Source of the DNA: Liolophura sinensis
Lineage: Eukaryota > Mollusca > Polyplacophora > Chitonida > Chitonidae
Direction: 5' to 3'
DNA: 64,000 nucleotides
Assembly (NCBI RefSeq): GCF_032854445.1
Contig: NC_088300.1
Location: forward strand, 33,773,608 to 33,837,607
Below, piece after piece: positions 1,597 through 35,938 of this stretch (the stretch's first letter is position 1; each line of letters starts with the position of its first letter). A program made the position numbers and the translations under genes. The notes under the pieces are model-generated. The model ran no database searches and was not told the DNA's origin. It saw nothing but the letters and a program-made list of their open reading frames with translations.

Positions 1597-1967
1597 TCAG
1601 GCATCATCAGCAAACTCCAAACCATCTTCATCCGTAGGAGTGAACGACAAAGGCCGTGTAGCGCTAGACGGTGCATCGCCTTTCTGCTGTGAAAACTTGC
1701 CATTTTTCTTTTCATCGACCACATTGTAACCTCCACCGTTTGATTTTCGAGAACTTTTAGGCGTTTCATCGTCACCACCCGATGCGATGCCTTTGTGTAT
1801 ATGCATTAGCTTCTTGGCTTCGTTGTTTATGTTAATGTCCTTTTCAACATTCCTTTTCTTACTCGCTCTGAAACTCCTCTTCTCGTCGATGACCGCTCCA
1901 GCTGTGAGACTTGCAAACGACGACAACGCATGTTTTTGCTTTTTTTGGAACTGACCGGCGATGCGAA
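1597..1967 (-). CDS. HVCN1-like: gene A exon 9 (C-terminal tail and stop)
   Basis: 371 nt, acceptor TTCAAATACAG. Begins VRIAGQFQKKQKHALSSFAS and ends EFADDA-stop. The paralogue tail shares only the first 30 or so residues (SSxASxxAxxVxDEKR); the rest is diverged low-complexity sequence rich in Ser, Lys and Glu. Confidence 0.82.
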
Positions 1968-4900
1968 CTGTATTTGAAGGGAAAGAGAAAAGAAACGTAA
2001 TCAGATCTAATTACCGAGTAACAAAAGCAAGCATCATGGCGATGCGAACTGTATACTGGCTGAAAAAGAAACAGATGATTTTAGCTCTGATCTGATCACA
2101 TTTTTTGGTAACGAAGGTAAGTTCCATGACGATGCCAACTTTATCATAATGGAAAGAGAAGAAAATGATCTTCAGCTCTAATTACTGAATAACAAAAGCA
2201 AGCATCACGGTGACGCGAACTGTATTCCGGGTGAAAAAGAAATAAATGATCGTAGGTCTGAAGCAAGAATTATGGCTGGGGAATATAGATACATGTACAT
2301 GTATTCATTTGTTATCTCTAATTAGCCAGTAACAATATTAAACTTGAGTAAACTGCCAGCAACCTGTGGAAACTGTGGGACTATTCTTGAGTACAGCGTA
2401 AAACACCAATCAAATAAATAAATATATAAATCATATGCTTACGCTTTAAAGACTATACCCGAGTTTTATATCCAAAAAATGTCAAGCCAATAAATGTTCC
2501 ACAATTACCAAGATTTCCCTTTCACGAAATATAAAACTTGTACCTCTACTATTTATAGAGTTAAATTAAATTAAAATTAAGTTTGAAAATGTTGTGATGT
2601 GACCCGCTTTATAAATATTAGGAAGTGTATTACTAATTTGAACAGTAACTCAAGCATATGAGGTTGATTTTTTGTGAAAGGTAAAAGTAAAACTTTTCGC
2701 CCAAAATCGATTTTGGGGACATTTACTCAGAAAAAATCTTCTTCAAACTAAATTAAGAGAATCAACACATGGCCATTTTCATAGACAAATTTTCATTTTA
2801 AAGGATTTTTCGTACATTATAACGCTACAAACCAATTAAGGCAATCTTACCAATTGTCTGATTAACAATCCATTCCTCTGTCCCAGCTTCAATGCACAAG
2901 GCTTTGACGGCATGAAGTTGTTTCTATAAATTGGATAAAGGATATTTATTTATTTATTTCATTGCTGTTTTCAAGAATATTTCACTTATACGATGGCGGC
3001 CAGCATTATGGTGGGAGGAAACCGGGCAGATCCCGGGGAAAATCCACGACAATCCGCAGGTTGAAAGCAGACCTTCCCACTTATGGCCGGTGAGGAAGCC
3101 AGTACGAGTTGGACTTGAGCTCACAGCGACCGTATGGGTGAGAGGCTTCTGGGCTAATGCACCGCACTGGCACGCGAAACACCTCGGCCACGGAGGCCTT
3201 CGGCAAAAGTGTATTAACAGAAAAACTTAATAAATCGCGACCATCCGCAGGTTATAACAGAGCTTCCCACTTAGGGCCGGCGAGGAAACCAGTATGAGCT
3301 GGACTTGAACTCTCATCGGCCGTATTGGTAAGAGGCTCCTGGACCATTGACGAAAAACTTAATAGATCGCGACCAGCTTAGATGTATGCCAAACTTTAAA
3401 AAATACAGAATGTTCAGATAACAACATAGAACCAAAAAAAAAAAATGCTGGAAAAATAAAACGATTCAATCTTACTCGAATCACATGTATATCCTCTTGC
3501 ATTTCGTCCATTTGCTTTTTCAGGTACTTTTTAGACTTGTACACCAGTAGGAGCTTGAAATGTTCATGATCCAAGACGGCCACAACCAAACCTGTGAATA
3601 AAATACGTAGTTAAGTATAACAGCAGACCATTCTGTCCACTGCTATGTAACACGGACACTCAAAAATTCTATGACAAAATGTGTATTGGTGAGGTTTTGC
3701 AAGTGATCCTCATTTTGAGAGCTAAAATTTCCAATTTCTAGGGAATCACTGTTTAGCATCTTTTGGAGACTTTATCATTTTTCTAAATATTTATTTTTCA
3801 ATTTGTAATTCACTTTAAATCCTGAAAATAAAAACGCCCCCCAGAACTGTATTAACAGGGTATTCCTGCCTCATCAAAATATTTACATGTATACATATAA
3901 GCAAGTTTCTAGCTTAAGTCAGGGCAGAAAGTACATACTATTCACGACTCGAATCACCCTCCAGGGTAAAATGAAGCTAAGTATGTAAGCAGACTCCTGG
4001 AGCGGAAGTGTCGTTATTCCTTCAAGGAAAGCCAGATCAATTATAAAGGAAACAATGACTACGAAGGCGTCGAACATCTAGAAATCAATACAAAACATGG
4101 TTTATGTGAATAACAACAAAATAATCAAATTCAGAGCACACATTTTCTGCAAAATTTTAAACTTGTGGAATATTCTCGATTGTTGATGTACATGCACTCA
4201 AATACACTCAAATGTTTGAATTCTAAGGTAGGCTTTTTGGATCATACTGAAAGTGGCAGGATAATGTGATGTGGCAGCAACTTTTCTCTGTATATTTCAT
4301 CTACATGCGATGTTTTTTTGCAGACATTATTTAACTTAAGACAAATACATCCAAATGTCAACTTCCAGTGCCAAAAACTAAGCATCGCGCACGGTTTTGA
4401 AATTTTGACTTACGTCAGAAAGGCTTTTGTGGAATTAGCCCTTCACGTCAACACCACAAAGCCAGGTTTGTTTTGAGTCATTAAATGATTTAAACGTTTA
4501 TTTTTGTATCGTACTTAAAATTATGGATGTTTGAAAAGCGTTAAGTGAAATCAAAAATATCAATATTTGGAAGTACAGGGCAATGAACTACGAATTAAAT
4601 TGAAATTTTGAATTCTGACCTAAAGTGAACATAAAATCTGCCATTATATATACATAGAAAAAAAGATACAGCTATCACAGGAAATGTGTAAAAAAAATTC
4701 TAAAACGTTTCGAAAGCCGAGAGGATGAAGTTCAGTATTGGGGATATGACACTGTCGGACAGTTCACTCAGAGTAGCTATGTTGAAGACGTCCTTATGAG
4801 CTTTGCCAATCACTAGCGCTGAAAGCGTCATGTGATAATTGCCAGTTACGTCAAAAAACCTATTAGCTCTGGATTGTCACTGTGGTTTCTTATAATGGAT

Positions 4901-7900
4901 AAACGGATATCATTCCAAAAAAATTGGATTTTCGGTTAGTTTAAGAATTAAACTGGTGCACTTTGGACCACACAATTATGAACAGGGAGCTGAGAACGGC
5001 TGCCGTGTCACAATGCGTACATGTTGGGCAGGAGACTGCAGTGACTTGTCAGGGTGAGCTGGCAAGAAAACCCCTTCGGGAGAGTCATTGCTTGATGAAA
5101 AATATTGTGACTTTGCATTGATTTTCTTTAGCAAACTCAGATTTGTTACGAAAATGTCTTCCCAAAATCTGAATGAAAGAGTCTGTTATCAAACAGAAGG
5201 TCTTGCTAAGTTCGGTACATTCCCTGAAATCGTTACAGCCAGTTTAATGCTAACACCCATGCAGGACGAGGACGAGAAGGACTGCTAAAACACAACATTG
5301 TGTCCACGAACATCGCACCAAAATAAAGGAAACACCAGCCCTTTAAACACGGAACAGAGCTGATACTCTTTGGTTGGGTACCAGGCGTTTTTCTTTGTAT
5401 TTTCTCATCGTCGCATTGTTAAATACCGATGTAGGGAAGACCTCCTAGGTTTTGTGACGTCACTCTAGATAGCTATAACATAGCAAGATGGCGTCACTAA
5501 ATGAGTGGCTAGGTACTGACGATTTTTTGCTATTTACTTTGTTGAGAAGCGGTGTAGATTTTTTAATATATATTTAGCACATTTCTGGAATACTGCTTTA
5601 TTAATTAATTTCGATTTAGTGACGGACATTATGTTCACTTTAAGCCAAGAAACGCTATATTCAATCGGCCCCAGCCATACATGAATCATAAAGACAACTA
5701 TAAAATTCGAATAATCATGTATTTAGTTCCCTTAAAATACAAAAAAGTATTAATTTTACTTGTCCGGTTGATAAACCATGCTCCATATTTTTAGCCTTCT
5801 TTTTCTTAAAAAGTCTATGTTCAGCAATACAAGTGTTTTCCATCCCCCAGTCTACTGACTGATGTTCCCTTCTACACCGACAAAAAAGTTAGGGTCAACC
5901 GGCTCAGTAGTATCAATTTCTTGTCAAAGAGAATTGATTCCAAGCATATTATAAGATCCGTAGACACCTGTTATTATGTTGTTGATTTCCGTGAGTAATC
6001 TAAAGACTCTTCAGACTTTATGAATCACCTAGGCAGTAATATTAGTCAGCGGACCCAGATTTGTCTCTCAGTGTATCAATCAAATTGTTAATTCTTGAAA
6101 AGAAAAATATTAATATAATAAAGAACTTGTACTGTAATCATAAATGAAGAAAGAGACTGTTACTCCGAAGTCTTTGAGGTCAAAACCTCACTGTAACAGC
6201 CTGTAACGGTTTATTGTTGACTCTACTGGGAGTATTTTTGCAATCAGCGATCAAACAAGTGACACATACAAACTACAAGAAGCATTTGTACTAATTAAAA
6301 AAAAGGAATGGTTTTTCAACTCACCTCAATCTTTTTATTCAGGAATTCTCTTCCTTCAAAGAATATCTTAAACAAAGTCTGGCAAAAGATAACAGTTAAT
6401 GAGTAATGTTTGGATAATAGTCTGTTAACAGATAACCTGTTTTCATAGAATATACCTGCACTCTGTACTTTGTCCAGTCGTACACATTTAGTTCGCGTCA
6501 CATGATATACTTTTTCAACATAAAAAAAATTGTAATTTTTCTAAACAAATTTCTTTCTTTCTACAGCAATTTGCCTACTTCTGTTGCACACTGTTGTTGG
6601 AAGTAGTCAATGCAGTATACTCACCTCTACCATAAGAATTCCTAGTATAGTAATGCTGGCAAAATGAAAGGCGTGCGCAACTTGCTGCTCAATGGAATGT
6701 GCATGGTGACCATCGCCGTGGTTTCCTGCATGGCCTCCTCCATGGCTGCCTTCTCCATGATTGATTTCCACATGGTCCCCTGTATTTCCGTGGTCCCCGT
6801 TAGCGACCCTGTCGTGCCCATCACCGTGAGCTTTGCTGTCAGATCGCCGATGCCTGGAGGAGTTGTATGCTGGGTTGGCCTCGTGTCCTTTCTCCCCATG
6901 ATGATCTACCAAAGCAGGCTCGTAGTGATTCACATCGGTTCCGTTGCCATGTGTTACTCCGCTATCGTGCGAATCTCCATGGCTTCCACCTGCTGCCTCT
7001 GTGTGTAAACAAGGACATTTTCAATTACATATCTGATAAGGTTTATTTATTTATAATTAAAGGACAACAGCATAGAGAGTAACACCAGATACAGAAACGA
7101 CTGTGTGATACTTGACAAGTGCATTGTGTTACCGATGAAATTCAAACACCTATAAATGGAAGTGACGATTATTTTATTATTTTAATATCTGAACTATGAG
7201 TAAAACATCAGGGGTGTCAGGACCAACCTTTAATGGCGTGCATGTCCAGAATGAGTTCTCCAATGACCAGAATGCAGTCAACGACGCAGAGGAAGACGAC
7301 AACAACGAGGACAATTCGTGAATGAAGAGCATGCTTTCCCTTGTGGCGGAACCTGGTGGATGAATATTTTTATGTTCAGGCGTGAAAAAAGCATTAAATA
7401 AATATTCTTTCACAAGAACCTTTCATCATAATAGATTAAAAATAGTACAAACTTCAACGGCCGAGTAACTTGATCGTATTGTACATGTAAAGCGGGTTTA
7501 ACATGAAATGTATGTATGTTCTTCACAGGATGAAAGAGGAAGAGCCAGTAATAAGCCTTTGGGCATATATGGCATTGCTAATCACCAAAATCTTGTTTAC
7601 AAAGCGCTGTATACTGGTAACTGGTACTTTTTGAATCTTTCATTATCCCATTTGGCTTTAATACCGCACTGGAGAAAATTGCACTGTTATGACGGCGATC
7701 CAGATTATTCAAGGAATCAATGGATGATTAGCGTTTTACGGCACACTGATCGTAATTCAACCAAATGGTGGAGAGGGTTATGACTGTGGATAACCTGGCA
7801 AATCCCGTAAGGAGGGACAACCACATCTCCCAAAAGGACCTGATTTCATACCGCACAGAGCAGAATTTCGGTTCGCTAATTATATCCAAACAGCTACCAC

Positions 7901-8358
7901 ATATCGTTAGATACATCGTCATAAGGACTGTGGATATCACATGCACACAATGGGATGTAACGGAAATATATGAAGTCTCACTTCTGGCACTTGTTTTTAG
8001 GTTTGTTTTCTTTCTGCCGCAGCTCATCATCCAGCTGGTTATCGAACTTGTCTTCGTTCTTAGCGAGTTTCGCAAACGCTGACGACTGCTTGGCAAAGCG
8101 CTGGAAAAGGAAATGAACGTTTACGCTTGTGTGGTAAGACATAAAGGCTTCAGGCATTCCAAAAATATGTATTTTACATCCTGAAATCCCAACCGTCTTG
8201 TTTGATTTATAATTACATCAAAATTGACAGTTCCCAAACATCTGGCCCAAGGAGTCTGACACTTAAGTCTTAACTTCGAAACAGATCTGAAGTTGTTACA
8301 TGCAATAGAAACTTTTATGTTAATACTTTACGCTGTCTTCGACTTTCTTGAGAAACAT
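1597..8358 (-). CDS. HVCN1-like: Hv-type voltage-gated proton channel paralogue A with His-rich S1-S2 loop
   Basis: Nine coding exons on the minus strand: 8332-8358, 7982-8100, 7228-7352, 6625-6998, 6325-6378, 3939-4077, 3476-3591, 2851-2923, 1597-1967. All introns are GT-AG and the frame stays open for 465 codons plus TGA. Seen: cytosolic N-terminus; S1 about 62-84 with CVVDCILVIGELILD (D74, E81, D85); an extracellular loop with 19 His in residues 92-191; S2 with H202 (human H140 position), E215 (E153) and K219 (K157); S3 with D236 and D247; S4 with ILPWRVIRVVN (W272, R273, R276, N279); a charged, possibly coiled-coil stretch about 288-335; and a Ser/Lys-rich tail. Known: Hv channels are dimeric voltage-sensor proteins that conduct protons across the plasma membrane. 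Odd: the first S4 arginine is Leu270, Pro271 precedes Trp272, the S2 Phe150 position is Leu212, and the His193 zinc ligand is absent. The first exon is the least certain part. Same architecture as gene B. Confidence 0.9.
1957..2225 (-). repeat. 81-90 bp degenerate tandem copies of the exon 9 acceptor region
   Basis: GGCGATGCGAACTGTA at the exon 9 boundary (1957) recurs at 2038, at 2128 (degenerate GACGATGCCAACTTTA) and at 2209 (GTGACGCGAACTGTA), each with similar neighbours (AACAAAAGCAAGCATCA). The intron therefore holds about three decayed extra copies of the last-exon splice acceptor. Confidence 0.7.
2354..2430 (+). mobile_element. SINE, tail end, internally deleted
   Basis: CCAGCAACCTG joins directly to GACTATTCTTGAGTACAGCG, AAAACACCAATCAAATAAAT and a TAAA tail, so the middle of the element is lost. 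It lies in gene A intron 8, antisense to the gene. Confidence 0.7.
2851..2923 (-). CDS. HVCN1-like: gene A exon 8 (C-terminal helix)
   Basis: 73 nt, the same as in gene B. Encodes KQLHAVKALCIEAGTEEW and onward; the paralogue has KQLIAAKKMCVDAGVEEW. Donor GTAAGA. Confidence 0.85.
2944..3200 (-). mobile_element. SINE, near full length, in gene A intron 7
   Basis: All parts are recognisable: ATTT-type tail, TCAAGAATATTTCACTTATA, GCGGCCAGCATTATGGTGGG, the ATCCGCAGG block, and a tRNA-like head ending GGCCACGGAGGCC. Read on the minus strand it starts as a tRNA-like head with A and B boxes. It is in the sense direction of gene A. Confidence 0.85.
3220..3374 (-). mobile_element. SINE head half flanked by 23-bp direct repeats
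   Basis: The head half of the same SINE (about 3238-3350) lies between two near-identical 23-mers beginning GAAAAACTTAATA at 3220 and 3352 (one mismatch). It directly follows the full copy at 2944-3200, so this is either a second insertion with its target duplication or a local tandem duplication. Confidence 0.65.
3476..3591 (-). CDS. HVCN1-like: gene A exon 7 (post-S4, cytosolic)
   Basis: 116 nt, the same as in gene B. Encodes LVVAVLDHEHFKLLLVYKSK followed by a charged helix-prone run; this is the position of the dimerising coiled coil in Hv1. Confidence 0.88.
3939..4077 (-). CDS. HVCN1-like: gene A exon 6 (S3 and S4)
   Basis: 139 nt, the same as in gene B. Contains S3 (MFDAFVVIVSFIIDL) and S4 (ILPWRVIRVVN). 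The S3-S4 segment is three residues longer than in human Hv1 and lacks the His193 zinc ligand. Confidence 0.92.
4078..6324. other. gene A intron 5; one dispersed repeat, a CRE-like site and a short ORF, rest unrecognised
   Basis: Holds a dispersed repeat at 4345-4435 (listed separately). At 5453-5577 a TGACGTCAC element is followed by GCAAGATGGCGTC and a 29-codon plus-strand frame, the form of a small promoter-plus-start; see findings. No further exon of gene A is needed here because exon 5 joins exon 6 in phase 0. Confidence 0.4.
4345..4435 (+). repeat. unclassified dispersed repeat, copy 1
   Basis: About 80 bp (TCAACTTCC, then CCAAAAACTAA, then TTGAAATTTTGACTTACGTC) matches the reverse complement of 32195-32290, with a weaker relative at about 14140-14215. 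No coding or terminal features are visible. Confidence 0.5.
6325..6378 (-). CDS. HVCN1-like: gene A exon 5 (S2 end and S2-S3 linker)
   Basis: 54 nt, 18 codons, phase 0 on both sides; encodes TLFKIFFEGREFLNKKIE. It aligns with IIFKLFVFRLEFFHHKFE of human Hv1 and with the 18-codon gene B exon 5. Lys4 corresponds to human K157. Confidence 0.88.
6625..6998 (-). CDS. HVCN1-like: gene A exon 4 (His-rich S1-S2 loop and S2)
   Basis: 374 nt against 191 in gene B, the difference being all loop. The first 100 complete codons include 19 His, many as GDGH/GNHG/GGGH motifs, and two N-glycosylation sequons (NGT, NSS). The exon then enters S2 with HAFHFASITILGILMVE. Acceptor TTTACACACAG, donor GTGAGT, phase 0 out. 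Confidence 0.9.
7070..7145 (-). repeat. unclassified dispersed repeat (R family), fragment
   Basis: GAGAGTAACACCAGATACAG with a following GTGTGATACTTG matches the start of the R-family copy at 63791-63950. It lies in gene A intron 3. Confidence 0.4.
7228..7352 (-). CDS. HVCN1-like: gene A exon 3 (S1 helix)
   Basis: 125 nt, the same length as gene B exon 3. Encodes the S1 helix with CVVDCILVIGELILD; the first Asp corresponds to human Hv1 Asp112, the proton-selectivity residue. The donor is a less usual GTTGGT. Confidence 0.9.
7982..8100 (-). CDS. HVCN1-like: gene A exon 2 (N-terminal cytosolic)
   Basis: 119 nt, phase 0 in and phase 2 out, acceptor CCTTTTCCAG and donor GTGAGA. Encodes RFAKQSSAFAKLAKNE and onward, aligning with EFARRSAQIAHFY in gene B exon 2. 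It is charged and without membrane segments. Confidence 0.8.
8332..8358 (-). CDS. HVCN1-like: gene A exon 1 (candidate 9-codon start exon)
   Basis: Encodes MFLKKVEDS and ends at a GTAAAG donor in phase 0, as the next exon requires. An in-frame TAA lies two codons upstream, so this ATG would be the true start. Gene B has a start exon of nearly the same size (10 codons, also KK at positions 4-5). Small exons can arise by chance, so confidence is moderate. Confidence 0.5.
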
Positions 8359-9934
8359 TAAAATTTACGCTTAAGTTTAAAACATAGTTTAGGAATTACA
8401 CCACAAGTTAAGTTTATGTCTGACTTAGGTCTAAGACAGATATATCACTTACTTCCAAGAGAAACTGGTTAGAAATTTTAAAATGTTATCAAGGAAATCA
8501 CAAGTACCTGGCACCGTGATTCGAAAGGATTTATGATGCATAACTTCATTTAACCACTTTAACAGAAAAAAAGTAAAAAAAAAAAAACTGAATAGCATTT
8601 GTTTGATGTGACGTGATGATATTCCTTTTGTGACACTGAATCAAACAGACATGGCGATATTAACGCATCCATATACATAATATAAATGACGACAGGAGCG
8701 TTTGGAAGCACAGCGTCATTAGTGGCTCTAGGCCGATGAGTGACACTATGTGTTTCAGCTGGACGTCACGACAGGCCAACTTGGAAGCGAATGAAAACGT
8801 TTGTTTCAGTAAGATCAAATTACAAAAGCAAATGGAATTATCTCGATCTTTTATCATTTAACATTTCATCTTAGACAGTAGATGATTTGTCACTCCATGG
8901 TTTAAGGCCGTTTTGTGATCATGCCGCAGCGTCAAAACACACGAGTTTTATCCCTTCACCCAACCCAATGGTGACGTCATTGGTGACAGCTGTCGAAACA
9001 ACTTTGGTTCGGGAAGAGCCTGTTCACAATATGTTCATCCATGACGTCATTTCCGAATAATCCCGATCTTTGACGGAAAATATGCATAAAATAGATGGGC
9101 TATTAAGCAATATACAATATGCCTCAAATATGAAAAAATAGTGTCTCGTTATCCGTCAATATCACAAGACATCCATACATCATCTGGTTGACAACTTTGC
9201 TCGCGGTATAGTAATTTTTTGTGTTTGTGAGTGAAAATCTGTCCACTCTGAAACACTGTCTGTGTACGAGTTAGAAAATAAGCTACATATACATCAGACG
9301 TATGCCTTCAGACTGCCTTGGCCGGTACGTAGTTGTAATTTGTATTGTAATTTGTTTAGTTAGTATTTTTTATACTCTGCTGATGTCTAGCCTGATGTCT
9401 ACACGTTACGCGTGGGAATGTAAGCTCATTCAGCGCTAAATGTACTAGTTCACGCATGACCGCTTAATGAATTACTTTTTCTCTCTCATATATGCATAAT
9501 CTGCGAATTTATGACGTCAAGAGAACAAAATTGTCTGTTATTATCTTTTCAAAACCATCTAACCTTGACCTGGTCAAACGGAAATACTGACCATGTAAAA
9601 ACACAACATATTTTATGTCCTACAGGCATCGCGGTAGTGTTTGTGAATGCGGCTTTCTGATTCATGATTCTAGACTAGTGCCTTAGTACTTGAATAGAAT
9701 CAGTCTCTTTTAGGTTATTCTCAGTATGAAATTTACATCAGCGGTGGCTAACCGTTAGACAAAGAGACCGACATACAATAGCTAACCAGAAAGGACCAAG
9801 TTTTATCCCGTGTATGTTAATATCAGATTACTGGACAGCATTTACATACAGTGTTCAGTAAACTATATTATCATTATCAATAAAACTGTCTGGGCATAAC
9901 ACAATTGACAATAATGTAACAAGCGTGATATCAT
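8359..9934. other. region upstream of gene A; nothing else recognised
   Basis: AT-rich sequence with the CRE/CCAAT cluster listed separately and a third TGACGTCAA at about 9511. No exon with homology to gene B exon 1 was seen beyond the candidate at 8332-8358. Confidence 0.35.
8965..9055 (-). promoter_or_regulatory. candidate upstream regulatory region of gene A (CRE and CCAAT sites)
   Basis: CCAATGGTGACGTCATTGG at 8964-8982 places a perfect TGACGTCA between two CCAAT-type half sites in opposite orientation; a second ATGACGTCAT is at about 9042-9051. Both lie 0.6-0.7 kb upstream of the candidate start exon of gene A. Function is inferred from motifs only. Confidence 0.3.
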
Positions 9935-10190
9935 TGTGTTGTCTGGTCATGTGTACCATATAACAACTTGACGTCAGTGTGTGTTTAGATGGACTATGCG
10001 CCATCTAACAGCGACATGAAATGTGAATATAGGTCCTATGTACCACATAACACCGTCACGTCACAGGTCTTCACAGGTCCTGAGTACTTCATAGCAGCCT
10101 GAAGTGAGTGTGTCTTCACAGGTTCTGTGTACCTCATACCAGCGTGACGTCAAAGTGTGTTTACAGGTCCTGTATATCTCATATTCTATT
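9935..10190 (+). repeat. degenerate ~45-bp tandem repeat, cluster 1
   Basis: About five decayed units of the type CCTGTGTACCTCATA, CAGCGTGACGTCA, GTGTGTTTACAGGT. Several units carry TGACGTCA. The same unit forms a better-kept array at 12715-12985. Confidence 0.6.
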
Positions 10191-10584
10191 ACCCTTCGAT
10201 TCCTTTTTATTACATACAAAGCACTGCTTGGCGCTATGCCAAGTGCACATTATCTGAGTCGTTAGATACCCCCCATCACGAGACAGAAGCGTTTGACTTC
10301 TGGACGGGTCTATTGTAGTTCTATGGGTGGATAGAGGATGTTCTTTACATTGAACAAAGCAGACGACAAATATAAACAAAGAAACAAAATGGCTATTTTT
10401 TAGAGAACGTTTATTTTAAAGAAGAAAAGTATCAGGTTACAGATAATTTAAAGCCCATAGGGACGTTTGAATGCTACACAAAAGAGATAATAATGGTTTC
10501 ACGAAAAGTTTTTTTTTCACATACGGAGCTGATAATTCTTCCTCCGAGTCTTTCTTTCAGCGGCCTCTCCTAAACGTCCCAGTT

Positions 10585-11100
10585 GACCACAAACTATCGT
10601 ATGGCAATCAACCAATGGGCCTAAAAAGATCGGATCCTTGATGTCTGATGTTTCCCGCGATGCAAAACTTAGCCGCCGGTACACGAATCACTGCGTCCGG
10701 GCTACGACAGCCACAGTTCTTGCTGATGCCGGGGTTTCTGTGATGGACGTTATGTCTGTGACAGGCCACCGCAATGAATCCAGTGTAGGGAGTTATGTCA
10801 CCAAACCGTCCGTTTCAAAACGCCGTGAAATCAGCATTATCCTGCATGCTTCAAGTGTCAGAAAATGCTGAAAGTGAAAATGCCGTTGAGTGAAAATACT
10901 CCCATATCAGTCACGCCACTCCCAGTGCAAATGCCCGACGCTGTCGACTGTAATGTTACACATGACAATAGCATTACAATCCAAATGGCAAAATTCCAGT
11001 TTTCAGTCACGCCTCAAAGTTTTCGAGGGCTGTTCAACAGTGCAACAATAAATAACAGCAGAGTTCACATCTTCACATCCTCTGGATGTTTTTTTTATCC
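10585..11100 (+). pseudogene. Crypton-type tyrosine recombinase relic (C-terminal half)
   Basis: The frame 10638-10871 encodes the catalytic half of a tyrosine recombinase of the Crypton/KIAA1958 kind: YTNHCVRATTATVLADAGV (HxxR box), MSVTGHRNESSVGSYV with the GH pair and the nucleophile Tyr (codon 10794-10796). Just upstream, in another frame, YGNQPMG gives the expected preceding motif, so a frameshift lies near 10625. A further tail (SVTPQSFRGLFNSATINNS, about 10985-11045) is in a third frame and resembles the C-terminal tails of such proteins. The N-terminal half, including the first catalytic Arg, was not found. Broken and 5'-truncated; not expected to be active. Crypton identity is from motif memory. 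Confidence 0.75.
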
Positions 11101-12700: not shown

Positions 12701-12714
12701 ATTATTTCTTAAAC

Positions 12715-12985: not shown

Positions 12986-13284
12986 AACGTGTTTTCTCTG
13001 TTCTGTGTACCGCATAACATCGTGAGGTTAGATTTTGTTTGTACATGTTTTGAACTACATAGCAGGGAGACGTCAGTGTCAGTTTACAGGTCAGTGCTGT
13101 AACAGTATCATTATTTTATCACTCGGCCGTGTAGATGATTTTTTACGAAAAAAAAAACACAAATGTACCCTGTAAACCGTAACAGCAAAAATATAAGACA
13201 ACAGGTCAGTTATAGTGCACAATAAATACAAACATTTTAATGCATTTCAGGCATTTTGTCATGCAGAAGGGTGGTGCCAGGGGG

Positions 13285-17342: not shown

Positions 17343-18110
17343 AATGGTGTTATATTCATGTTTGATACATGTGTGCCAAAATACGATGGTTGGTGTTGTA
17401 TCCATTTTTGATACATTTGTGCCAAAATACGATGGTTGGTGTTGTATTCATATTTGATACATGTGTGCCAAAATACGATGGTTGGTGTTGTATTCATATT
17501 TGATACATGTGTGCCAAAATACGATGGTTGGTGTTGTATTCATATTTGATACATGTGTGCCAAAATACGATGGTTGGTGTTGTATTCATATTTGATACAT
17601 GTGTGCAAAAATACGATGGTTGGAGTTGTATTCATATTTGATACATGTGTGCCGAAATACGATGGTTGGTGTTGTATTCATATTTGACGCAGGTGTGCAA
17701 AAATACGATGGTTGGTGTTGTATTCATATTTGATACATGTGTGCAAAAATACGATGGTTGGTGTTGTATTCATATTTGATGCATGTGTGCAAAAATACGA
17801 TTGTTGGTGTTGTATTCATATTTGATACATGTGTGCCAAAATACGATGGTTGGTGTTGTATTCATATTTGACGCAGGTGTGCCAAAATACGATGGTTGGT
17901 GTTGTATTCATGTTTGATACATGTGTGCCAAAATACGATGGTTGGTGTTGTATTCATATTTGACACATGTGTGCCAAAATACGATGGGCTGTGTTGTATT
18001 CATATTTGATACATGTGTGCAAAAATACGATTGTTGGTGTTGTATTCATATTTGATACATGCGTGCCAAAATACGGTGGCAGGTGGTGTATTCATGTGTG
18101 AATCTATGTG
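17343..18110 (+). repeat. 46-bp minisatellite, about 16 units
   Basis: A regular 46-bp unit (AAAATACGATGGTTGGTGTT, then GTATTCATATTTGATACATG, then TGTGCC). Units are nearly identical, with recurrent single-base variants (CCAAA/CAAAA, GATACATG/GACGCAGG) suggesting higher-order duplication. The period is not a multiple of three. Confidence 0.95.
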
Positions 18111-23332: not shown

Positions 23333-23805
23333 TACAACCAAGCTTGCTGGATGACAATTTCAACCAAGCTAGCTGGATTACAAATTACAACCAAGCTAGC
23401 TGGATGACAATTTCAACCAAGCTAGCTGGATGACAATTTCAACCAAGCTAGCTGGATTACAAATTGCAACCAAGCTAGCTGGGTGACAATTTCAACCAAG
23501 CTAGCTGGATGACAATTTCAACCAAGCTAGCTGGATTACAAATTGCAACCAAGCTAGCTGGGTGACAATTTCAACCAAAGCTATCTGGATTACAAATTGC
23601 AACCAAGCTAGCTGGATTACAAATTACAACCAAGCTAGCTGGATGACAATTTCAACCAAAGCTATCTGGATTACAAATTATAACCCAGCTAGCTGGATGA
23701 CAATTTCAACCAAAGCTATCTGGATTACAAATTTCAACCAAAGCTATCTGGATTACAAATTACAACCGAGCTAGCTGGATGACAATTACAACCAAGCTAT
23801 ACGTA
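23333..23805 (+). repeat. 26-28 bp minisatellite rich in AGCTAGCT, about 17.5 units
   Basis: Units alternate between CAACCAAGCTAGCTGGATGA-type (26 bp, ending CAATTT) and CAAGCTAGCTGGATTAC-type (27 bp, ending AAATTA/G) in runs, with an AAGCTATCTGG variant in the second half. Most units contain the palindrome AGCTAGCT. Confidence 0.95.
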
Positions 23806-27482: not shown

Positions 27483-27829
27483 TTACAAACGCGTGTTTTC
27501 CGTCTCGGATAGTGATTCCTTTTCACTGAGATTATTGCCTTCGTTGAGGCTGCCTCCGCTGTAATTCCCTTCATCCTCTTCTACCTTCCTTGTTTCGTTT
27601 GCTAGATGTGACCTTTGACCTCCAGCTTTGAGCGATTCAATTTTATGTTCCTCCGATTCGGACTTCGCATGACTTCGGCCATTTTTATCAGATTCGTCTT
27701 CTTTAACGCTGAGATGTGCTGGTGACTTTCCAGAGTATCTTTTTTCGTCAACCACTGAAGATGCACTGAAGCTGGCGAGGGATGAGATCGCGGACACCTT
27801 CTTAAAGTTGCTATTGCTGGCAATTTTCA
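27483..27829 (-). CDS. HVCN1-like: gene B exon 9 (C-terminal tail and stop)
   Basis: 347 nt, acceptor AATTTCTACAG. Begins KIASNSNFKKVSAISSLASF, then SASSVVDEKR shared with gene A, and ends in a Ser/Glu/Asn-rich tail (NLSEKESLSETENTRL-stop). Confidence 0.85.
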
Positions 27830-30800
27830 CTGTAGAAATTAAAAAAAAAGGTCGGATAAATATCAGTTAACTCATCCGAAGGAGGAAGGAAGGAAAGCGC
27901 ATTTCTTTATAGACTTATTTATTTCATTGTTGTTTAATGCCAAGCACTTTACACTTTTTTCACTTACACGCTGGCATTCGACTTTATGGTCGAGGTGAAC
28001 CACCGACCTTTAGCAAGTTACCAACAAACTATGTGGCGCACAGACTTAAATCGCATGAAGGAAGGCCGTAAGCTTCTTGCCAATTAAAGCCACAAACAGA
28101 AGACAGGAATCAGCAAAACATATCTCCTGCCTTACGGGATTTAACATGCAATTTATTTATTTATATATTTAATTGCTGTTTATGATTTATTTATTCAATT
28201 GGTGTTTTAGGCCGTACTCAAGGCTCTACGAAAATACGATTTTTATTTCTTCTGTCCCTTCAAAAACAAATTTGTGGAAATGCGGACGGTCGTGGATTCC
28301 ATCCAGGCCCTCCCCGATTTCCTCCCACCATAATGCTAGCCGCCGTCGTATAAGTGATATATTCTAGGGTATGACATGACACACCAATCAAATAAATAAA
28401 TAAATAAATGCAAAGAAAATCCTACAAAATATGTTTGTTAAAACACATTTCAATAGTAGCTTTACTGGTGGCGTCTCAAATGTTATAAATATATGTTCAA
28501 AGCAAAAATGTCTATAAATGCTCACGTAAAGACTGGTTAAACTTCCATTCCTCGACCCCAGCATCAACACACATCTTCTTTGCAGCAATCAGTTGTTTCT
28601 AAATATGAAAAAAGGTAAGCTTTAACCTGTTGTTGCTCAAAGAATGACAACTGTTTACATTTGGGGACACACTTAGTACTCTTATAATTGCTACTGCCGC
28701 TCATTTATCACAGAGTAAGAAGTGATTTTTGAGAATAATGGATTTTAAGGCTGGTGACATTTTTTTAGACTGCATTTTCTGACATGTATATGCGTGACGT
28801 CATTTGCATATGACCGTTTTACGTCACCAGTTTATTACACGCTACAGCGTCCGCTTAGAAATCCAATGGGACAGGTTATAAGTTCTCGCTACATGTACAT
28901 ATTGAATTTTCCAGTTCACCATCTTGCAACGCAAATACACTCTGTATTTCAATACCATGTGTGTGTAGAGCTGATTTCGTTCCCCTCACCTTTACTACCT
29001 ACATAAAGCCAAGGATATCGCACGGGAATTCTGGTCTAACTTTTACTGTTTTAAAAGTATTTACACAGAGAGCTTTTCTTACAAATGAGGACATAAATGA
29101 TGCTTTCGAAACGGTCAACTGTTTTCTGTCAAAAGAAAACAAGCGAGTCTTGCTGATCAATTTTTCTGATGCATTGCTCTGGGTTCGGTGCCTCAACAGG
29201 GGTTGGGGGGGCTTGTTCTATACGTTCTATTTTCTTAAACAAGGGGAGCAACTCGCATTGCAGTTTATTGCGACATTTTTTAATTGTGAACAGCTTCTCC
29301 CTTCTCCTAGTACTTTTCCAATAAAGTTTCAAATACATGTTACTAGGATGACAAATTCTCAAAAAATAAGTATTTTAATGAACAGTGGTATTTCATCTGA
29401 CATACCTGACATTAACTGTATCTGATATAAAATTTGGTATAAAAAATGCACCTGTGTATAAATGACGTAAGTGATACCCAACAAGGTGCTCTGCATCTCG
29501 GATCGTTCATCATCAGATACATTGTAAGTTGGGGTCTTCTTAGCAAAACTGTGTTCATTGGCCTAGGATACGATTTACAAACCTTTTTTCCTTGTGTTTA
29601 GGTTTTTTTGGTTTTGTATTGTTTTCTTCTTTTCAGGGAGGAGAGGATATGATGAAGTTTTGGGATGAGGTGGTACCACACCTTGTCATTTATATATCGT
29701 TTTGTTGCAAGTAATGTAAACCTGGGATAATTCAGTATACATTGACAGTATTGTACAAGTCTAAGGAAAAACCTCTTTACGTTATATTTGTGTACGTTCT
29801 GGCTCTTTGCTAAATATACACACACTTACCCTGGCAATGTCCAGATCTTCGTTAGCGTCTTTTAGCTCACGTTTCACATGTTTCTTGGATTGATACAGGA
29901 GTAACAGTTTAAAATGTTCGTGATCCATAACAGCAACGACTAAACCTGTGAAAACAATGACAAGAAAATCGTTATAATGATAAAACGTTTTGTAAAACAA
30001 ACGCATTGAATTTGCTTTTGTATCCATGTACAAATTGCCAGGTGCATAGAAAAAAAAACGGAAATTTGTCGAAAAGCAAAACCACATTAAATTGTATATT
30101 GAAAGGATATATATTTTTAGATAATTTAATTATAGCCAGTTGCACTAAACGTGCATTTGTTTTATGAAAAGATAGTATTTTGAGCAATTCTAGATCAGTG
30201 AAGCTTAATAAATTGAAAGCAACATCACTGCATTATACGTATTTCTGCTAAAGCTTTGGTACTTAAGGGTCTTTACTCCGAATGTACTACCATCTTATTA
30301 GACAGCTGCAGAGTAAATTATAGAACGACTTTTCTTACAATTACTTACTGTTGACAACCCGGATAACCCTCCACGGCAGGATAAAGCTGAGGATGTAAGC
30401 GGACTCCTGGATGGGTAACGTCGTGATACCCTTTAGAAAGACCAAGTCAATTATAAAGGAGGCCAAGACCACGATCGCATCAAATACCTGTGATGAAAAA
30501 CGAAAAAAAAACTTTTGGGGCATTGAGAATAAATAATATAAATTACCCAAACATGGACGTATATTGTTCAATTAGTAATTATCGTCTTTATATTTATCTA
30601 TTTATTTATTTATTTGATTGGTTTTCTTCATGCCTGGGTCAAGAACATTTCACTTATACGAAGGATTCCAGTATAATGGGTTAGGTCAGCCGGAAAAAGC
30701 CCGAGAGAAACCCATTCCGAGGTTGCTGACAGACCTTCCGACGTACGACAGGAGAGGAAACCAGCATAAATTGATCCTGAATTCACAAAGGCCGAATTGG

Positions 30801-33800
30801 TAAGACTCTCCAAGATCGCCCACCTTGGATTCGCAAGCCTGAGCAAAATTGGTTTGTCAGGAATCTGACAATTGTCCGCAAATAACAGGCCACTTGGAAT
30901 ACACGTGATCTATGCTTTTCTAAATAAAAGAACACTAGTAATTTCAACAATATAACAACCACCTTCATAACCGAGTCACATATATGTATATTTATAAGAA
31001 AATGGCTAACCTCCAGTGAGCGATGAAGAAACTGTCTTCCAAGGAAAAATATCTTCAAAATTGTCTAGAAGAAAGAAAACGCTTTTCATATACAGGTGAG
31101 CACATTAAAAAGTAAATCGTCAGATGTTATACCCCAAATATTACCAATACGTTTCTTTTTAACCAAGCAGTTTCACTTATTTCTTTGATTAGTGTTTTAC
31201 GCCACATTCAAGAATATTTCATTTATACGGCGGCGGCCACCATTATGGCTGGTGGAAACCGGGCAGAGCCCGGGGGAAACCCACGACCATCCGCAGGTTG
31301 CTGATAGACCTTCCAACGTACGGCCGGAGGGGAAGCCAGCATGAGCTGGACTTGAACTCACAGCGACCGCATTGGTAAGAGACTCCGTTTTACTTTTAAC
31401 CAGTGCTATACACAAAGGATCAAAACAATACTTTACCTTACGCTTTATCAAGGAGAATTATTTAAAATCAGTTTTCAAGGCACAAATGTTTGACGCATAT
31501 ATATTTATTTATTTGTTTGATGTTTTACGCCGTACTCAAAAATATTTCACCTCTGCGACGGCGGCCACCATTGTGGTGGGAGGCAACGGGCAGAGACCGG
31601 GGAAAACCCAGGACCTTCCGTTGGCTGCTGCAGTTTTGCCCATATAGGCTATGGAGGACGCATATATATGTATATTTTTATTGACAATATACAAAATCAA
31701 AAATGAAGATCCGATTTTGCATACTACGGCTGCTCTTGTATTACTGTTGTACTTTATATGGTGTCCTACCGTGTTAATTATCTAAACCAAAAATTAACCA
31801 CTAACCTCAATAAGGAGTACACCCAAAATTGCAATACTGGCGTAATGGAAGCCATGGGCAATCTTTTCTTCGATGGGATGCTCGTGGTGTTCATCTTGGC
31901 CGCTAGCACCGGATGCAGCCCTTTCTGTCCGATGGTGAACAACTGAAGAACTGTTGTCTTCATGAGCATTAGCTGACCCATGCTCAGATTTTAATTCTGT
32001 TCAGGAAATAATGGAGTAATTGAAACGGTGATTTTTGTTAAAACTGTCTTTTTTTAACCTAATTCTGTTTAACTAATGGCGATAGAAGGCGTTTAATATG
32101 TTACTATTTACCCATTTACATGAACAGTTAGAATAAAACCCAACTGTGGTAACATGAGGCTGAACTTCATATAGATTACCATACTTTGCCACTATTCCAC
32201 ACATTCGTTTCTGACTTAAGTCAAAATTTTGAAACTCTGTACGATGGTTAGTTTTTGGTACCGGAAGTTGAAATTCTGACACATTTAAGATAAGGTAAAC
32301 TTGGTTAGGTGGACTAAATAGTAATCTCTAAGCCCTCAAAATATAGTTTTATGAGCGTAATTTAAAATTTTGAATAAAGTAAGGAATGGTTCTGTGGAAT
32401 CAGCGCCAGTTGTTTATGTCTAGGAAGTGTGTATACCAAATGATGACAATATTGCATAATTGCATACTGCAGTTACGTGTAAACAGTTGTAGATATCACA
32501 CTCTTGTACACAAATTTCAGCATCTTATTCTGCTGAGAATCTAAAAAGTATAAACAGGGCAATGTGCATAAATAGGAAGACTATTAGAGTTGTATATCAA
32601 AATGTCTTTAATTAATTTTTATATAATTTGTTTTTTTTTCCGCAAAATTCGATAGTCAAATGTATCGACTGTAACATGTGATCCGCATTATTTGTAGTAA
32701 TAACATACCGTCGCGTACGTTTTTTTTACGTCTGAATGTACATGTATTTCTTATGATCTTTACTTACGTAAAGTGTGCTTGTGCCCGATGAAGTGACATA
32801 AAATATATATGTATTAGGGGCAGAGAAATGTGGGTATAGCGTCATCTGGTACATTATCAATACTGTGTATAAAGCCCAGTTTACATTTCAGGAAATAACG
32901 TCAAAAAAATTCTAAAATATTTATTGATGGCATCTTCAGATAATATTTGTGGTTTTTCTATTGACCCTTTTTTAATTCTTACGTTCTTTTAACTCTCCCT
33001 TTAGAATAGAGTGACAGGCAAAAAATTGTTCATATTTTGAATAAATACTGCAGCACTCCTTTCTTTCAGTGAAACACTTAAAAAAGTGTTTTGCTGCAGG
33101 CACCATGCATTGTTACGAACCCCGTTTTTAAACATTGTATTATATTTTTTACCTTAAATTTGCCTTGGGTAAATGTCTAACCTACATCTTCCCATTTGTG
33201 TACATTATAATCCAGTCAAGCATTCTCGACGCTTCAGTGTTCGTGCGTTTCGTGTCATTGTGACATTCTGGAAATATGTATCGGTGTTGTAAACATGTTT
33301 ACGATCAAACCATGCAGAATTTTTTTTACGTTAATCTATAAATATGAGCGACGGAGTCGTGAAAGTTGCATGTCCACTTGAGCGCAGTCATATTTACTAT
33401 CATCTAATCTACCGAGTTTGGAGATATCGGCTTTCACGACATTCGTCATTTGTACTCCATTTTCTGCACAGAACACCATGTGAGATTGTGTTTCGCCGCT
33501 TGCTATTATTTTTTTCAACGTTATTTTGGAGCTTGTTTATTCTGACAGTGACTTCCTCAACTCTTACGAGGAATGAAACATACATCGCTAGCTCGGCTTC
33601 AATGATACTACTGTCAACCCGCCCGCCCAGAGAGGCTACATCCTCAACCATCTTCAGCGTGCCGTGCCCAGTACCGCTTGTCATCATTCGATTAGAGAAT
33701 TCGTCTTGACTGTGGATTCTATATTTACGTGGACTGACTCGCCTGTGGAAGCCGGAATATTCCATCCGGATCACACGCTGTCATCAGTAAGAAACTATAT

Positions 33801-35938
33801 ACTTTGTATTTATTTGTATTGTTTTGTATGTTATTGTTAATTGTATTGTTTGTCTGTTTCGTTAAAATATATGTGTATTGAACTTATTCAAGTTTCTTCG
33901 TGTTCCCTTGTTTAGTCTTGTGTAAGGCCTGTTACTGGTCTAAGAGTTAAACAACGGGAGGGGGGGAGGGGGTTCTCACCAATGGCGTAAAACACCAATC
34001 AAATAAATAAATAAATGTTAATTTCCCGGCTTTTCAACCTAATTTGACTGAGTTATCAGATTATCATATTGTTACATATCCCAGTTAGTGCTGGACACAT
34101 CCTACACATTGTTTGCATCCGCATGTTTATTTGCCGTCGTTGCTGCAAGAGTTTTGGATGCATGCCTAGGAAAATCTTTTTCTTTCCATTTGTAGTGTAA
34201 ATTTGAAACTATGGGTAGAGTATTAAATTCCATGCTTTTTTAGTTATTCACTGTTTTTAATTTTGGTCGAATGAACCACAGAAAGCGTTATAGCATCAAA
34301 ACTTTTCTGACCATTTACAGTTTGTAATTTGATCGAATGAACCACAAACAGGGTTATACCATCCAAACTTTTCTGACCATTTACAGTTTGTTATTTGATC
34401 GAATAAACCACAAACAAGGTGATAACATCTAACCTTTTCTGACCATTTACACTTTGTATTTTGATGAACTACGGATTTTCTGGTAAAATCAAAAACTTTT
34501 CTGACCAATTACAGTTTTTACTTTGATCACATGAACCACAAAGTACTAGTAACATCTAACCCGTTTCTGACAATTTACAGTTTGCATTTTGATCGAATGA
34601 ACCGACAAACAGGGAAATGACATCCAATTTGTTCTTACCACTTTCATTGTGTATTTGATGTTATGCACAACAAACAGAGTTCTAGTAAAGTCCAACCGTT
34701 TCTGACAATCTACAGTCTGTATTTTGCTGAGCAGTTGCGACATTGCGCTATGCATTACCTTTAATAGCGTGCATGTCAAGGATCAGCTCCCCGATGACCA
34801 AGATGCAATCAACGACACAGAGGAGGACGATGATAATGAGGACAGGTCGACTGTGAAGCACATGCCTGCCTTTTCTTCGGATCCTGTCGCGAGAGAGAGA
34901 AGATGGCATATTGCTATACTTTATCAAACACAAAAATGGCTTTGAAGCTTTCATTTTCCTAAAAAATAGTTGCACTGAAAACCGTCAGACATATCAACAA
35001 GCTTGGTTAGAGCATATTTGTATGCAAATGTCAGGCAAAAGGGGGGAATGAATGAAACGAGACATGAATTGCAACGTTGAATACGACGATCTTCCCCTAG
35101 TCGCTGTGTTTTTTATTGAAGTGTATAAGATAATTGTCGAAGCTTTGCTTGCCAAAATACTGTATGTATCTGTTTTAGGAGAAAATACAACACGTTCTGA
35201 ATCAATATTCAGACTTAGTCTATTTTCCATGAATAACGTCTAGTGCTAGGGAACTTACTTCTGTAATCTACTTTTCGGTACATACTGCTCGGAACGAAGC
35301 TCAGATTCCAGGTCCGCGTCGAACTGATCGCATAAATGGCCATCATAAAAATGAGCTATTTGTGCCGAGCGCCGAGCAAATTCCTAAAAGAAAATGCACA
35401 TTTGCCAGTGTAGAATTTTTGTACAACCGATTATAAACCGATCTCGATTATGTCGTTGAAAAACACTGAAAACACATATCTGTATCTGGTGTTGCATCTT
35501 TAAATTCTTAACATGACTTGCTTGAAGGTGTATTGGGTTTCAAGTCTGGTATTAACTTCAGTCCAGGATGAAGTGTCATTTAATTTCTACTGAAATAAAA
35601 CTGGCATTTAGTAGTAAACCTGGCTTAACTTTTAATATACTTTAATATTATAACATTTATATAGAGTTGCATTTTTCAACACTTGTCAGGTGGATAACAT
35701 TGCTTATTTATTTATTTATTCGATTGGTGTTTTACGCCGTACTCAAGAATATTTCACTTATACGACGGCTGCCAGCATTATGGTGGAAGGAAACCGGGCA
35801 GAGCCCGGGCGAAACCCACGACCATCCGCAGGTTGCTGGAGGACCTTCCCACGCACGGCTGGAGAGGTAGCCAGCATGAGGTATACGTATTGTTAATGAT
35901 ATGCTTACCTTAACCAGGCTCTGTTTCTTGGCTGCCAT
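27483..35938 (-). CDS. HVCN1-like: Hv-type voltage-gated proton channel paralogue B
   Basis: Nine coding exons on the minus strand: 35909-35938, 35259-35383, 34759-34883, 31806-31996, 31011-31064, 30349-30487, 29830-29945, 28526-28598, 27483-27829. All are joined by GT-AG introns in consistent phase to give 399 codons plus stop. Seen: MAAKKQSLVK start; S1 with CVVDCILVIGELILD (D77, E84, D88); a loop of about 40 residues with 7 His; S2 with H144, E157, K161; S3 with D178 and D189; S4 ILPWRVIRVVN (W214, R215, R218, N221); post-S4 helix; charged C-terminal tail. Known: the S1 Asp gives proton selectivity in Hv1, and S2 and S3 acidic residues pair with S4 arginines. Odd: Leu212 replaces the first S4 Arg, Pro213 precedes Trp214, and Leu154 replaces the S2 Phe. 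It is a tandem paralogue of gene A about 19 kb away in the same orientation. Best guess is an Hv3-like channel. Confidence 0.93.
27914..28075 (-). mobile_element. SINE family 3 relic in gene B intron 8
   Basis: ATTT tail, then TTTAATGCC, CACTTACACGCTGGCATTCG, and ACCGACCTTTAGCAAGTTAC. This last block replaces the GACCATCCGCAGGTTGC block of the main SINE and recurs at 58755-58930, 62700-62835 and 57910-58140. Confidence 0.55.
28276..28409 (+). mobile_element. SINE, tail half, in gene B intron 8
   Basis: CCTCCCACCATAATGCTAGC, CGCCGTCGTATAAGTG and CACCAATCAAATAAATAAAT; head truncated. A minus-strand tail stub (28150-28235, TGATTTATTTATTCAATTGG) faces it, so the two tails lie head-out. Confidence 0.75.
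28526..28598 (-). CDS. HVCN1-like: gene B exon 8
   Basis: 73 nt, KQLIAAKKMCVDAGVEEWKF and onward, acceptor ATATTTAG and donor GTGAGC, phase 1 out. Confidence 0.87.
28599..29829. other. gene B intron 7; CRE-octamer motif, otherwise nothing recognised
   Basis: GTGACGTCATTTGCATATGA near 28795-28813 joins a perfect TGACGTCA to an ATTTGCAT octamer, with TTTACGTCACC 15 bp on. A 154-codon plus-strand frame (28961-29425) and shorter minus frames inside it show no recognisable domain and are not called genes. Confidence 0.35.
29830..29945 (-). CDS. HVCN1-like: gene B exon 7 (post-S4)
   Basis: 116 nt, LVVAVMDHEHFKLLLLYQSK followed by KKHVKRELKDANEDLDIAR, donor GTAAGT. Charged helix-prone region at the site of the Hv1 coiled coil. 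Confidence 0.9.
30349..30487 (-). CDS. HVCN1-like: gene B exon 6 (S3 and S4)
   Basis: 139 nt. S3 VFDAIVVLASFIIDLVFLKG and S4 ILPWRVIRVVN, with acceptor TTTTCATCACAG and donor GTAAGT. Confidence 0.94.
30597..30812 (-). mobile_element. SINE in gene B intron 5
   Basis: ATTT tail, GGTCAAGAACATTTCACTTA, GGTTGCTGACAGACCTTCC, CCTGAATTCACAAAGGCC; diverged but collinear to the head. Sense to gene B. Confidence 0.75.
31011..31064 (-). CDS. HVCN1-like: gene B exon 5 (S2 end and linker)
   Basis: 54 nt, TILKIFFLGRQFLHRSLE, phase 0 on both sides, acceptor TTTCTTCTAG and donor GTTAGC. Confidence 0.88.
31183..31386 (-). mobile_element. SINE in gene B intron 4
   Basis: TTTGATTAGTGTTTTACGCC, TTCAAGAATATTTCATTTAT, GGCGGCGGCCACCATTATGG, through GACTTGAACTCACAGCGACC; the outer head is lost. 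Sense to gene B. Confidence 0.8.
31504..31656 (-). mobile_element. 5'-truncated SINE with 12-bp target duplication
   Basis: TTTATTTGTTTGATGTTTTA, TCAAAAATATTTCACC, ACGGCGGCCACCATTGTGG. Flanked by exact direct repeats GACGCATATATA at 31492-31503 and 31657-31668. It lies in gene B intron 4 about 120 bp downstream of the copy at 31183-31386. Confidence 0.8.
31806..31996 (-). CDS. HVCN1-like: gene B exon 4 (S1-S2 loop and S2)
   Basis: 191 nt. The loop has SEHGSANAHEDNSSS and QDEHHEHP, 7 His and one NSS sequon; S2 begins IAHGFHYASIAILGVLLIE. It is 183 nt shorter than in gene A. Confidence 0.9.
32095..32290. repeat. two dispersed-repeat fragments side by side
   Basis: 32095-32195 (plus): CATGAACAGTTAGAATAAAA then CCCAACTGTGGTAACATGAG, R family. 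32195-32290 (minus): reverse complement of the 4345-4435 repeat, with TTCTGACTTAAGTCAAAATT and TTAGTTTTTGGTACCGGAAG. Confidence 0.5.
34260..34725 (-). repeat. 62-66 bp tandem repeat beside the S1 exon
   Basis: About seven units marked by TTTTCTGACCATTTACAGTT at 34303, 34369, 34435 and 34497, then diverged units (TTTCTGACAATTTACAG) to about 34710, alternating with GATCGAATGAACCACAAACA. The array ends about 35 bp from the donor of gene B exon 3. Confidence 0.85.
34759..34883 (-). CDS. HVCN1-like: gene B exon 3 (S1 helix)
   Basis: 125 nt. Begins IRRKGRHVLHSR and carries S1 (PVLIIIVLLCVVDCILVIGE) with the selectivity Asp77. The last 22 or so residues are identical to gene A. Confidence 0.93.
35259..35383 (-). 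CDS. HVCN1-like: gene B exon 2 (N-terminal cytosolic)
   Basis: 125 nt, acceptor TTTTCTTTTAG, donor GTAAGT, phase 2 out. Begins EFARRSAQIAHFYDGHLC; acidic and hydrophilic. Confidence 0.85.
35650..35853 (+). repeat. inverted repeat, left arm (SINE plus 3' flank)
   Basis: ATAACATTTATATAGAGTTG, TTTTTCAACACTTGTCAGGT, GGATAACATT, then the tail and first half of a minus-strand SINE. The whole 204 bp recurs inverted at 36541-36744, including about 50 bp that are not SINE. Confidence 0.88.
35703..35885 (-). mobile_element. SINE in gene B intron 1
   Basis: TTTATTTATTTATTCGATTG, GTGTTTTACGCCGTACTCAA, ACGACGGCTGCCAGCATTAT, to GGTAGCCAGCATGAG; the outer head is missing. It ends about 24 bp downstream of the exon 1 donor. 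Confidence 0.85.
35909..35938 (-). CDS. HVCN1-like: gene B exon 1 (start codon)
   Basis: 30 nt, MAAKKQSLVK, donor GTAAGC, phase 0. The ATG context (AGCATGGC) is acceptable. It lies in the 687-bp spacer of an inverted repeat. Confidence 0.75.

Follow-up and report, generated by a model that had tools for sequence, protein, structure and literature searches.

Can a proton channel still close when residues that seal its path have been replaced? This question is raised by two neighbouring genes, A and B, of the chiton Liolophura sinensis. They lie in the window analysed here, a stretch of 64,000 nucleotides of the contig NC_088300.1 (in the following C6; positions 33773608-33837607), and both are Hv-type (proton channel) genes encoded on the minus strand. 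The sequence makes it likely that A and B are intact-looking proton channel genes of the HV3 type, that they make up an old tandem pair, two of the six such genes found on C6, and that their products would be leaky and only weakly voltage dependent.

Exon structure and family membership of the two genes

A first-pass annotation of this DNA had reported two complete nine-exon Hv genes that point the same way, with about 19 kb between them. Orientation and spacing were found as described, with approximately 19.4 kb between the stop of A (27483) and exon 2 of B (8100). Gene A (35938 to 27483) comprises nine exons of 30/125/125/191/54/139/116/73/347 base pairs (bp) and encodes 399 residues; the first of these exons is plausible but tentative. 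In gene B (8100 to 1597) only eight exons are secure (119/125/374/54/139/116/73/371 bp; 456 residues without the start), and the claim of two complete nine-exon genes was not confirmed. The start of B has two candidates: an ATG exon of 27 bp (8358-8332), whose GTAAAG donor is weak, and an ATG at 8157 that is in frame and reads through the acceptor. Donor scans near 8.1-9 kb for exon 1 of B yielded no well-scored donor. The exons are listed below by their positions in the window.

35909-35938, minus: A exon 1 (30 bp, ATG), tentative; strong GTAAGC donor, phase 0 into exon 2, no paralogue support
35259-35383, minus: A exon 2 (125 bp), N-terminal region; AG/GT, weak similarity to B exon 2
34759-34883, minus: A exon 3 (125 bp), S1 with the Asp equivalent to D112; paralogue exons 125-126 bp
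31806-31996, minus: A exon 4 (191 bp), S1-S2 loop and start of S2
31011-31064, minus: A exon 5 (54 bp), end of S2
30349-30487, minus: A exon 6 (139 bp), S3-S4, LPWRVIRVVN
29830-29945, minus: A exon 7 (116 bp), post-S4 segment
28526-28598, minus: A exon 8 (73 bp)
27483-27829, minus: A exon 9 (347 bp), C-terminal tail and stop; phase-1 acceptor, open frame, tail motif common to B exon 9 and gene E
7982-8100, minus: B exon 2 (119 bp)
7228-7352, minus: B exon 3 (125 bp), S1
6625-6998, minus: B exon 4 (374 bp), His-rich S1-S2 loop with RHRR|S, start of S2
6325-6378, minus: B exon 5 (54 bp), end of S2
3939-4077, minus: B exon 6 (139 bp), S3-S4
3476-3591, minus: B exon 7 (116 bp), post-S4 segment, heptad-like together with exon 8
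2851-2923, minus: B exon 8 (73 bp)
1597-1967, minus: B exon 9 (371 bp), C-terminal tail and stop

The internal exons of both genes are flanked by AG and GT. Identical intron phases and several equal exon lengths had also been claimed, and both were found: the seven shared introns agree in phase (2, 1, 0, 0, 1, 0, 1), and five exons are of equal length (125, 54, 139, 116 and 73 bp). The tail encoded by exon 9 measures 115 residues in A and 123 in B.

A phmmer search with A without exon 9 returned human Hv1 (5oqk, E 3.5e-12) and the chimera 3wkv (E 4.7e-11); the membership of B follows from its similarity to A. For the human numbering the Asp of S1 was taken to be residue 112 and the His of S2 to be residue 140; under these anchors the residues at positions 109, 150, 178, 179 and 205 agree with the positions named in the literature. 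Both genes possess the S1 selectivity Asp (D112) and the S4 motif W-R-x-x-R. In comparison to human Hv1, D112, E119, D123, H140, E153, K157, D174, V178, D185, W207, R208, R211 and N214 are kept in A and B, and positions 205, 206, 150 and 109 carry Leu, Pro, Leu and Cys. The S4 helix reads LPWRVIR in both, so that the first arginine (R1) is replaced by Leu, followed by Pro. Of the features common in the Hv family, the first arginine of RxWRxxR and the conserved F150 are therefore absent from both genes, each position being occupied by Leu (position 150 in the alignment with 5oqk).

These departures are those of a known type. In the available part of a review on the family, HV3 is described by an LPWRxxR S4, a large S1-S2 loop and larger cytosolic parts, the loss of R1 is named as the HV3 exception to the RxWRxxR rule, and F150 of S2 is given as conserved in the Hv family (PMC10377628). 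The substitute for R1 is once given there as lysine in the summary and as leucine elsewhere; leucine is followed here. A and B show xPWRxxR with R1 replaced, and their S1-S2 loop and intracellular domains are large, the loop of A being only moderate. Their assignment to the Hv family and, as putative members, to the HV3 type is supported. The earlier description as HV3-like with the first S4 arginine lost proved sound: besides the LPWRxxR motif and the enlarged loop and tail, both genes fall into a clade with support of 100/99, apart from the chiton RxWR genes and human Hv1. The Pfam family VGPC1_C gave no match across the genome; since the controls gave none either, this is uninformative.

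The HV3-type gene set and the age of the pair

The genome itself was searched exon by exon with protein queries, with unsequenced stretches represented as N, and for both reasons the following locus counts are lower bounds. At least six HV3-type loci were found, all on C6, in the order B, A, C, D, F and E. Six protein queries returned the same six loci and no seventh, some queries missing some members; query G listed only A, C and F of this set. A genome with only two such genes is ruled out by these six loci; the first-pass annotation had named neither the other four nor the strand of A and B. RxWR-type loci were detected on C10 and C8. The loci outside the window are the following.

C6 33.87-33.88 Mb, minus: gene C, HV3-type
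C6 33.99-34.00 Mb, plus: gene D, HV3-type
C6 41.36 Mb, plus: gene F, HV3-type
C6 41.41 Mb, plus: gene E, HV3-type
C10: gene G, RxWR-type, S1-S4 in one exon, 8-residue loop
C8: gene H, RxWR-type, His-rich loop without basic site
C8:33670000-33679900: locus I, frame broken in the His-rich exon 4, weak donor only after S4
C8: locus J, S2-like fragment with stops nearby
C8 about 33.730-33.736 Mb, minus: locus K, S2 and S3-S4 exons, RLWRLHK

R1 is Leu in five of the HV3-type genes and Val in E, and Pro follows in all six. The exon lengths 125/54/139/116 bp are common to A, B, D, E, F and H. Exon 8 has 79 bp in the model of D, compared with 73 bp in A, B, C, E and F, and C deviates in exon 3 (126 bp) and exon 6 (142 bp). 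The models of the paralogues are incomplete, as a first exon is modelled only in A and a last exon only in A, B and E. Because these lengths recur across paralogues, the structure common to A and B is that of the family and is no mark of a recent copy. Of the RxWR-type genes, which are of the same family, G has a GT at the same phase-1 position after the Asn of S4, and H has the 125/54/139/116-bp exons in common with A and B. Unlike A and B, both keep R1, Phe150 and the S4 motif RLWRVTR.

For the phylogeny, eight chiton genes and human 5oqk were used as rows; 3wkv was aligned but not included, and loci I (degenerate), J (a fragment) and K (for which an S1 exon was looked for and not found) were left out. 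Trees were calculated from 187 columns (voltage sensor and the next two exons) and from the 125 voltage-sensor columns. In both, the six HV3-type genes formed one clade (100/99). In the 187-column tree A and B were sisters (91/97), joined next by E (84/91) and then by F (94/96), with C and D outside this group and D on a long branch. It is probable from this tree that A and B are sister tandem paralogues.

The duplication is old, and both copies are under amino-acid constraint. Over 186 codons, A and B show 69% identity, a nonsynonymous divergence (dN) of 0.22 and a proportion of synonymous differences (pS) of 0.84, which is saturated and beyond correction. Outside the exons, their DNA similarity is confined to dispersed and simple repeats. 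Orientation, a distance of about 19 kb and the same exon structure could also be expected of a recent tandem duplication or of an assembly duplicate of one gene, but the saturated synonymous sites, the restriction of DNA likeness to exons and repeats, and an exon structure common to E and F, 7.6 Mb away, make this extremely improbable; the first two observations ruled out a recent or haplotype duplicate. The end of S1 had been described as identical between the copies, and the last 21 codons of the S1 exon indeed encode the same protein sequence, with no nonsynonymous and 11 synonymous differences. Together with the synonymous saturation, this rules out gene conversion, and the identical S1 end fits ordinary purifying selection. 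The split roles that had been read from this identity and the diverged loop and tail were not borne out; the identical S1 end speaks neither for nor against them.

The belief that most animals carry one Hv gene and Aplysia three is outdated. According to the available part of the review, there are seven putative Hv genes in Aplysia and eleven in a scallop, HV3-type genes number up to eight per bivalve, and channels with the S4 proline also occur in brachiopods and phoronids (PMC10377628). Since HV3 is already counted there as a large molluscan family, the chiton genes are a new member set of a known kind. Among the matches listed in a literature search, there was no report on chiton Hv genes.

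Several further features of the relatives were observed. Gene C has Glu for the S1 selectivity Asp. At E153, D carries Val and E carries Tyr; in addition, E119 is replaced by Gln in D and R1 by Val in E. In gene F, an 83-bp tandem array (C6:41359626-41360522; 10.8 copies, 97% match) has a unit consisting of the end of the S1 exon, the splice donor and the start of the intron, so that an exon end has turned into a minisatellite in which the 5' splice site recurs. Locus I seems to be a relative of H in decay. HV4 has reportedly been called bivalvian-specific in the title of a paper. Locus K keeps Phe150, and its S4 (RLWRLHK) shows the RxWRxxK pattern, which is given as a signature of molluscan HV4 and fungal channels in the part of the review that was available (PMC10377628). 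Weak matches of the Ion_trans type at C6:26.99, C7:39.79, C8:28.13, C8:28.145 and C10:16.31 Mb were left uncounted, as were two unassigned ones at C1:80.51 Mb (E 0.0018, two stops) and C6:2.73 Mb (E 0.86).

Closure of the proton path, the outer loop and other window elements

The hydrophobic gasket of Hv1 consists of V109, F150, V178 and V179. Position 150 is occupied by Leu in A, B, D, E and F and by Met in C; it is Phe in G, H, K and human Hv1. All six HV3-type genes thus lack the gasket Phe in addition to R1. In the available text of the review, no mention was found of a replaced gasket Phe, of the loop layout or of the common exon structure in HV3 (PMC10377628).

In the proposed mechanism, the voltage-sensor domain of A and B would itself be the proton path, with its N- and C-terminal regions in the cytosol and an enlarged S1-S2 loop on the outside of the cell. 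Within it the S1 selectivity Asp and the S4 arginines R2 and R3 are kept, R1 is Leu followed by Pro, and the S2 gasket Phe is Leu. Since R1 contributes to sealing the channel at rest and the gasket differs as well, a leak is most likely: proton flow through A and B would depend only weakly on voltage and continue in the 'closed' state, with the pH gradient deciding whether acid enters or leaves. Aplysia AcHV3, which has the same motif, conducts protons, leaks in the closed state and has a voltage dependence of about 60 mV per e-fold, as far as the available part of the review describes it (PMC10377628), and the human R1 mutation R205W leaks when closed, according to the accessible part of a second source (PMC11853527). 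The difference between A and B would lie mainly in the outer loop, short in A and long and His-rich in B, and in the C-terminal tail.

D112, R2, R3 and the Trp and Asn of S4 are kept, and residue 150 is still hydrophobic. A and B might accordingly be ordinary voltage-gated proton extruders which tolerate the loss of R1 and of the gasket Phe, and in which loop and tail only set trafficking. This is unlikely in view of the leak and weak gating reported for the characterised HV3 with the same motif (PMC10377628, in the part available) and of the like behaviour of R205W in human Hv1 (PMC11853527, likewise in part).

Leaky, weakly gated channels of the HV3 type, encoded by an old pair, remain the preferred reading, against which the following points weigh. 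The effect of Leu150 on the leak is uncertain, since Leu is still hydrophobic and the leak described in the literature was obtained by making the gasket more polar (PMC11853527, available part). The Ion_trans scores of the two genes (24.5 and 21.8 bits) lie just below the Pfam cut-off of 25, and the loop of A, at 47 residues, is of no more than moderate length. The putative orthology to AcHV3 is drawn from motif and architecture, the sequences compared being those of the chiton and of human Hv1. Dimerisation of A is uncertain, because its post-S4 segment has no significant heptad signal of the kind expected for the C-terminal coiled coil of the Hv family: the score was reached by 0.33 of shuffles for A and by 0.0022 for B, and among seven segments it was reached by less than 5% of shuffles for B, E, F and H, but not for A, C and D. 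The A-B pair was not recovered in the 125-column tree, where E stands beside B (49/85), although an approximately unbiased (AU) test did not reject the pair (p 0.30); the local duplication claimed at first remains probable. The neighbours A, B, C and D (33.8-34.0 Mb) are not a clade in the best tree, as forcing them into one lowered the log-likelihood by 9.0 units (p-AU 0.13).

The divergence of loop and tail noted in the first annotation was confirmed. The S1-S2 loop comprises 47 residues in A, 108 in B, 138 in C, 146 in D, 63 in E, 50 in F, 8 in G and 98 in H, and the tails of A and B differ as well. In comparison to the rest of the model, His is enriched in the loops of B (19/108, hypergeometric P 7.3e-6) and H (19/98, 5.7e-6) and modestly in A (7/47, 8.7e-3); the enrichment was not below 0.05 in C, D, E, F and G. 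The strong divergence of the loops, the His-rich loop of B and the changed key acids of siblings (D112 to Glu in C, E119 to Gln in D) would suit proteins without proton conduction, acting as voltage or pH sensors or, through the outer loop, as adhesion-like proteins. This is distinctly improbable for A and B, as both keep the conduction acids, protein change between them is strongly constrained, and AcHV3 still conducts according to the available part of the review (PMC10377628).

Furin-type sites (RX[RK]R) occur in three of the six HV3-type loops, namely in B (RHRR|S), D (two sites) and F (RHRR|A). In 20,000 shuffles per loop, an equal number of sites was obtained in 0.42% (B), 0.035% (D) and 0.97% (F); these and the following chance figures are suggestive only, because the pattern was picked after the loops had been seen. 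The loop of A has only an RXXR site (RTER|A, 4.5% by chance), which lines up with the basic sites of D and F in a local alignment, and E has only HRR|A (RR 9.6%); no RX[RK]R was found in the loops of C, G and H. In A, B, D, E and F the basic site is preceded, towards S1, by an N-glycosylation sequon (NxS/T). Chiton HV3 precursors might be cut in this loop by a furin-type protease, giving a two-chain channel (S1; S2-S4), and the newly exposed end, His-rich in B, might then tune the leak to outside pH or metal. Such cutting is unlikely; if true, it would mean that a proton channel is controlled in an unusual way. Judged by title and the start of the abstract, no report of a cut proton channel was among the matches listed in the literature search.

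The remainder of the window was also inspected. Of 66 listed open frames of at least 85 codons, exons of A and B included, the 26 other frames submitted to Pfam gave one family above the cut-off, a Phage_integrase fragment (PF00589, E 1.3e-6), which is probably derived from a mobile element. It and the repeats are located as follows.

10587-10868, plus: Phage_integrase fragment
2938-3147, 28281-28406, 30599-30805, 31165-31384, 35705-35880 and 36543-36689, both orientations: dispersed repeat of about 130-220 bp, some copies inside introns of A and B
17345-18095: tandem array, 46-bp unit, 16.3 copies
23335-23799: tandem array, 27/79-bp unit
53446-53714: tandem array, 132-bp unit, 2.0 copies at 99%

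Comparison with known proton channels

Apart from the loop cutting, the findings are an ordinary extension of a known family, in which a clustered HV3 set is now pointed to in chitons. From this set it follows that HV3 with the S4 proline probably predates the split of chitons from other molluscs, which agrees with the older origin given in the available part of the review (PMC10377628). The losses of R1 and of the gasket Phe, each bearing on the sealing of the closed path, fall in the same six genes, and by mutating these positions one could test directly how a voltage sensor turns leaky. Points worth keeping are the old six-gene set, this joint loss and a possible cleavage site in the loop.

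The closest likeness is to Aplysia AcHV3 and molluscan HV3, as described in the part of the review that was available (PMC10377628): A and B resemble them in LPWRxxR with Leu for R1, the enlarged loop, the longer cytosolic parts and the occurrence of several members per species. The likeness is one by description, and the replaced gasket Phe, the loop sequon followed by a basic site and the common exon structure are features seen here in the chiton genes. A and B share the four-helix voltage-sensor domain with human Hv1 (HVCN1; 5oqk) and with the chimera 3wkv. They differ from human Hv1 in the absence of R1, in the Pro of S4, in Leu150 and Cys109, and in a long extracellular loop and a long C-terminal tail.

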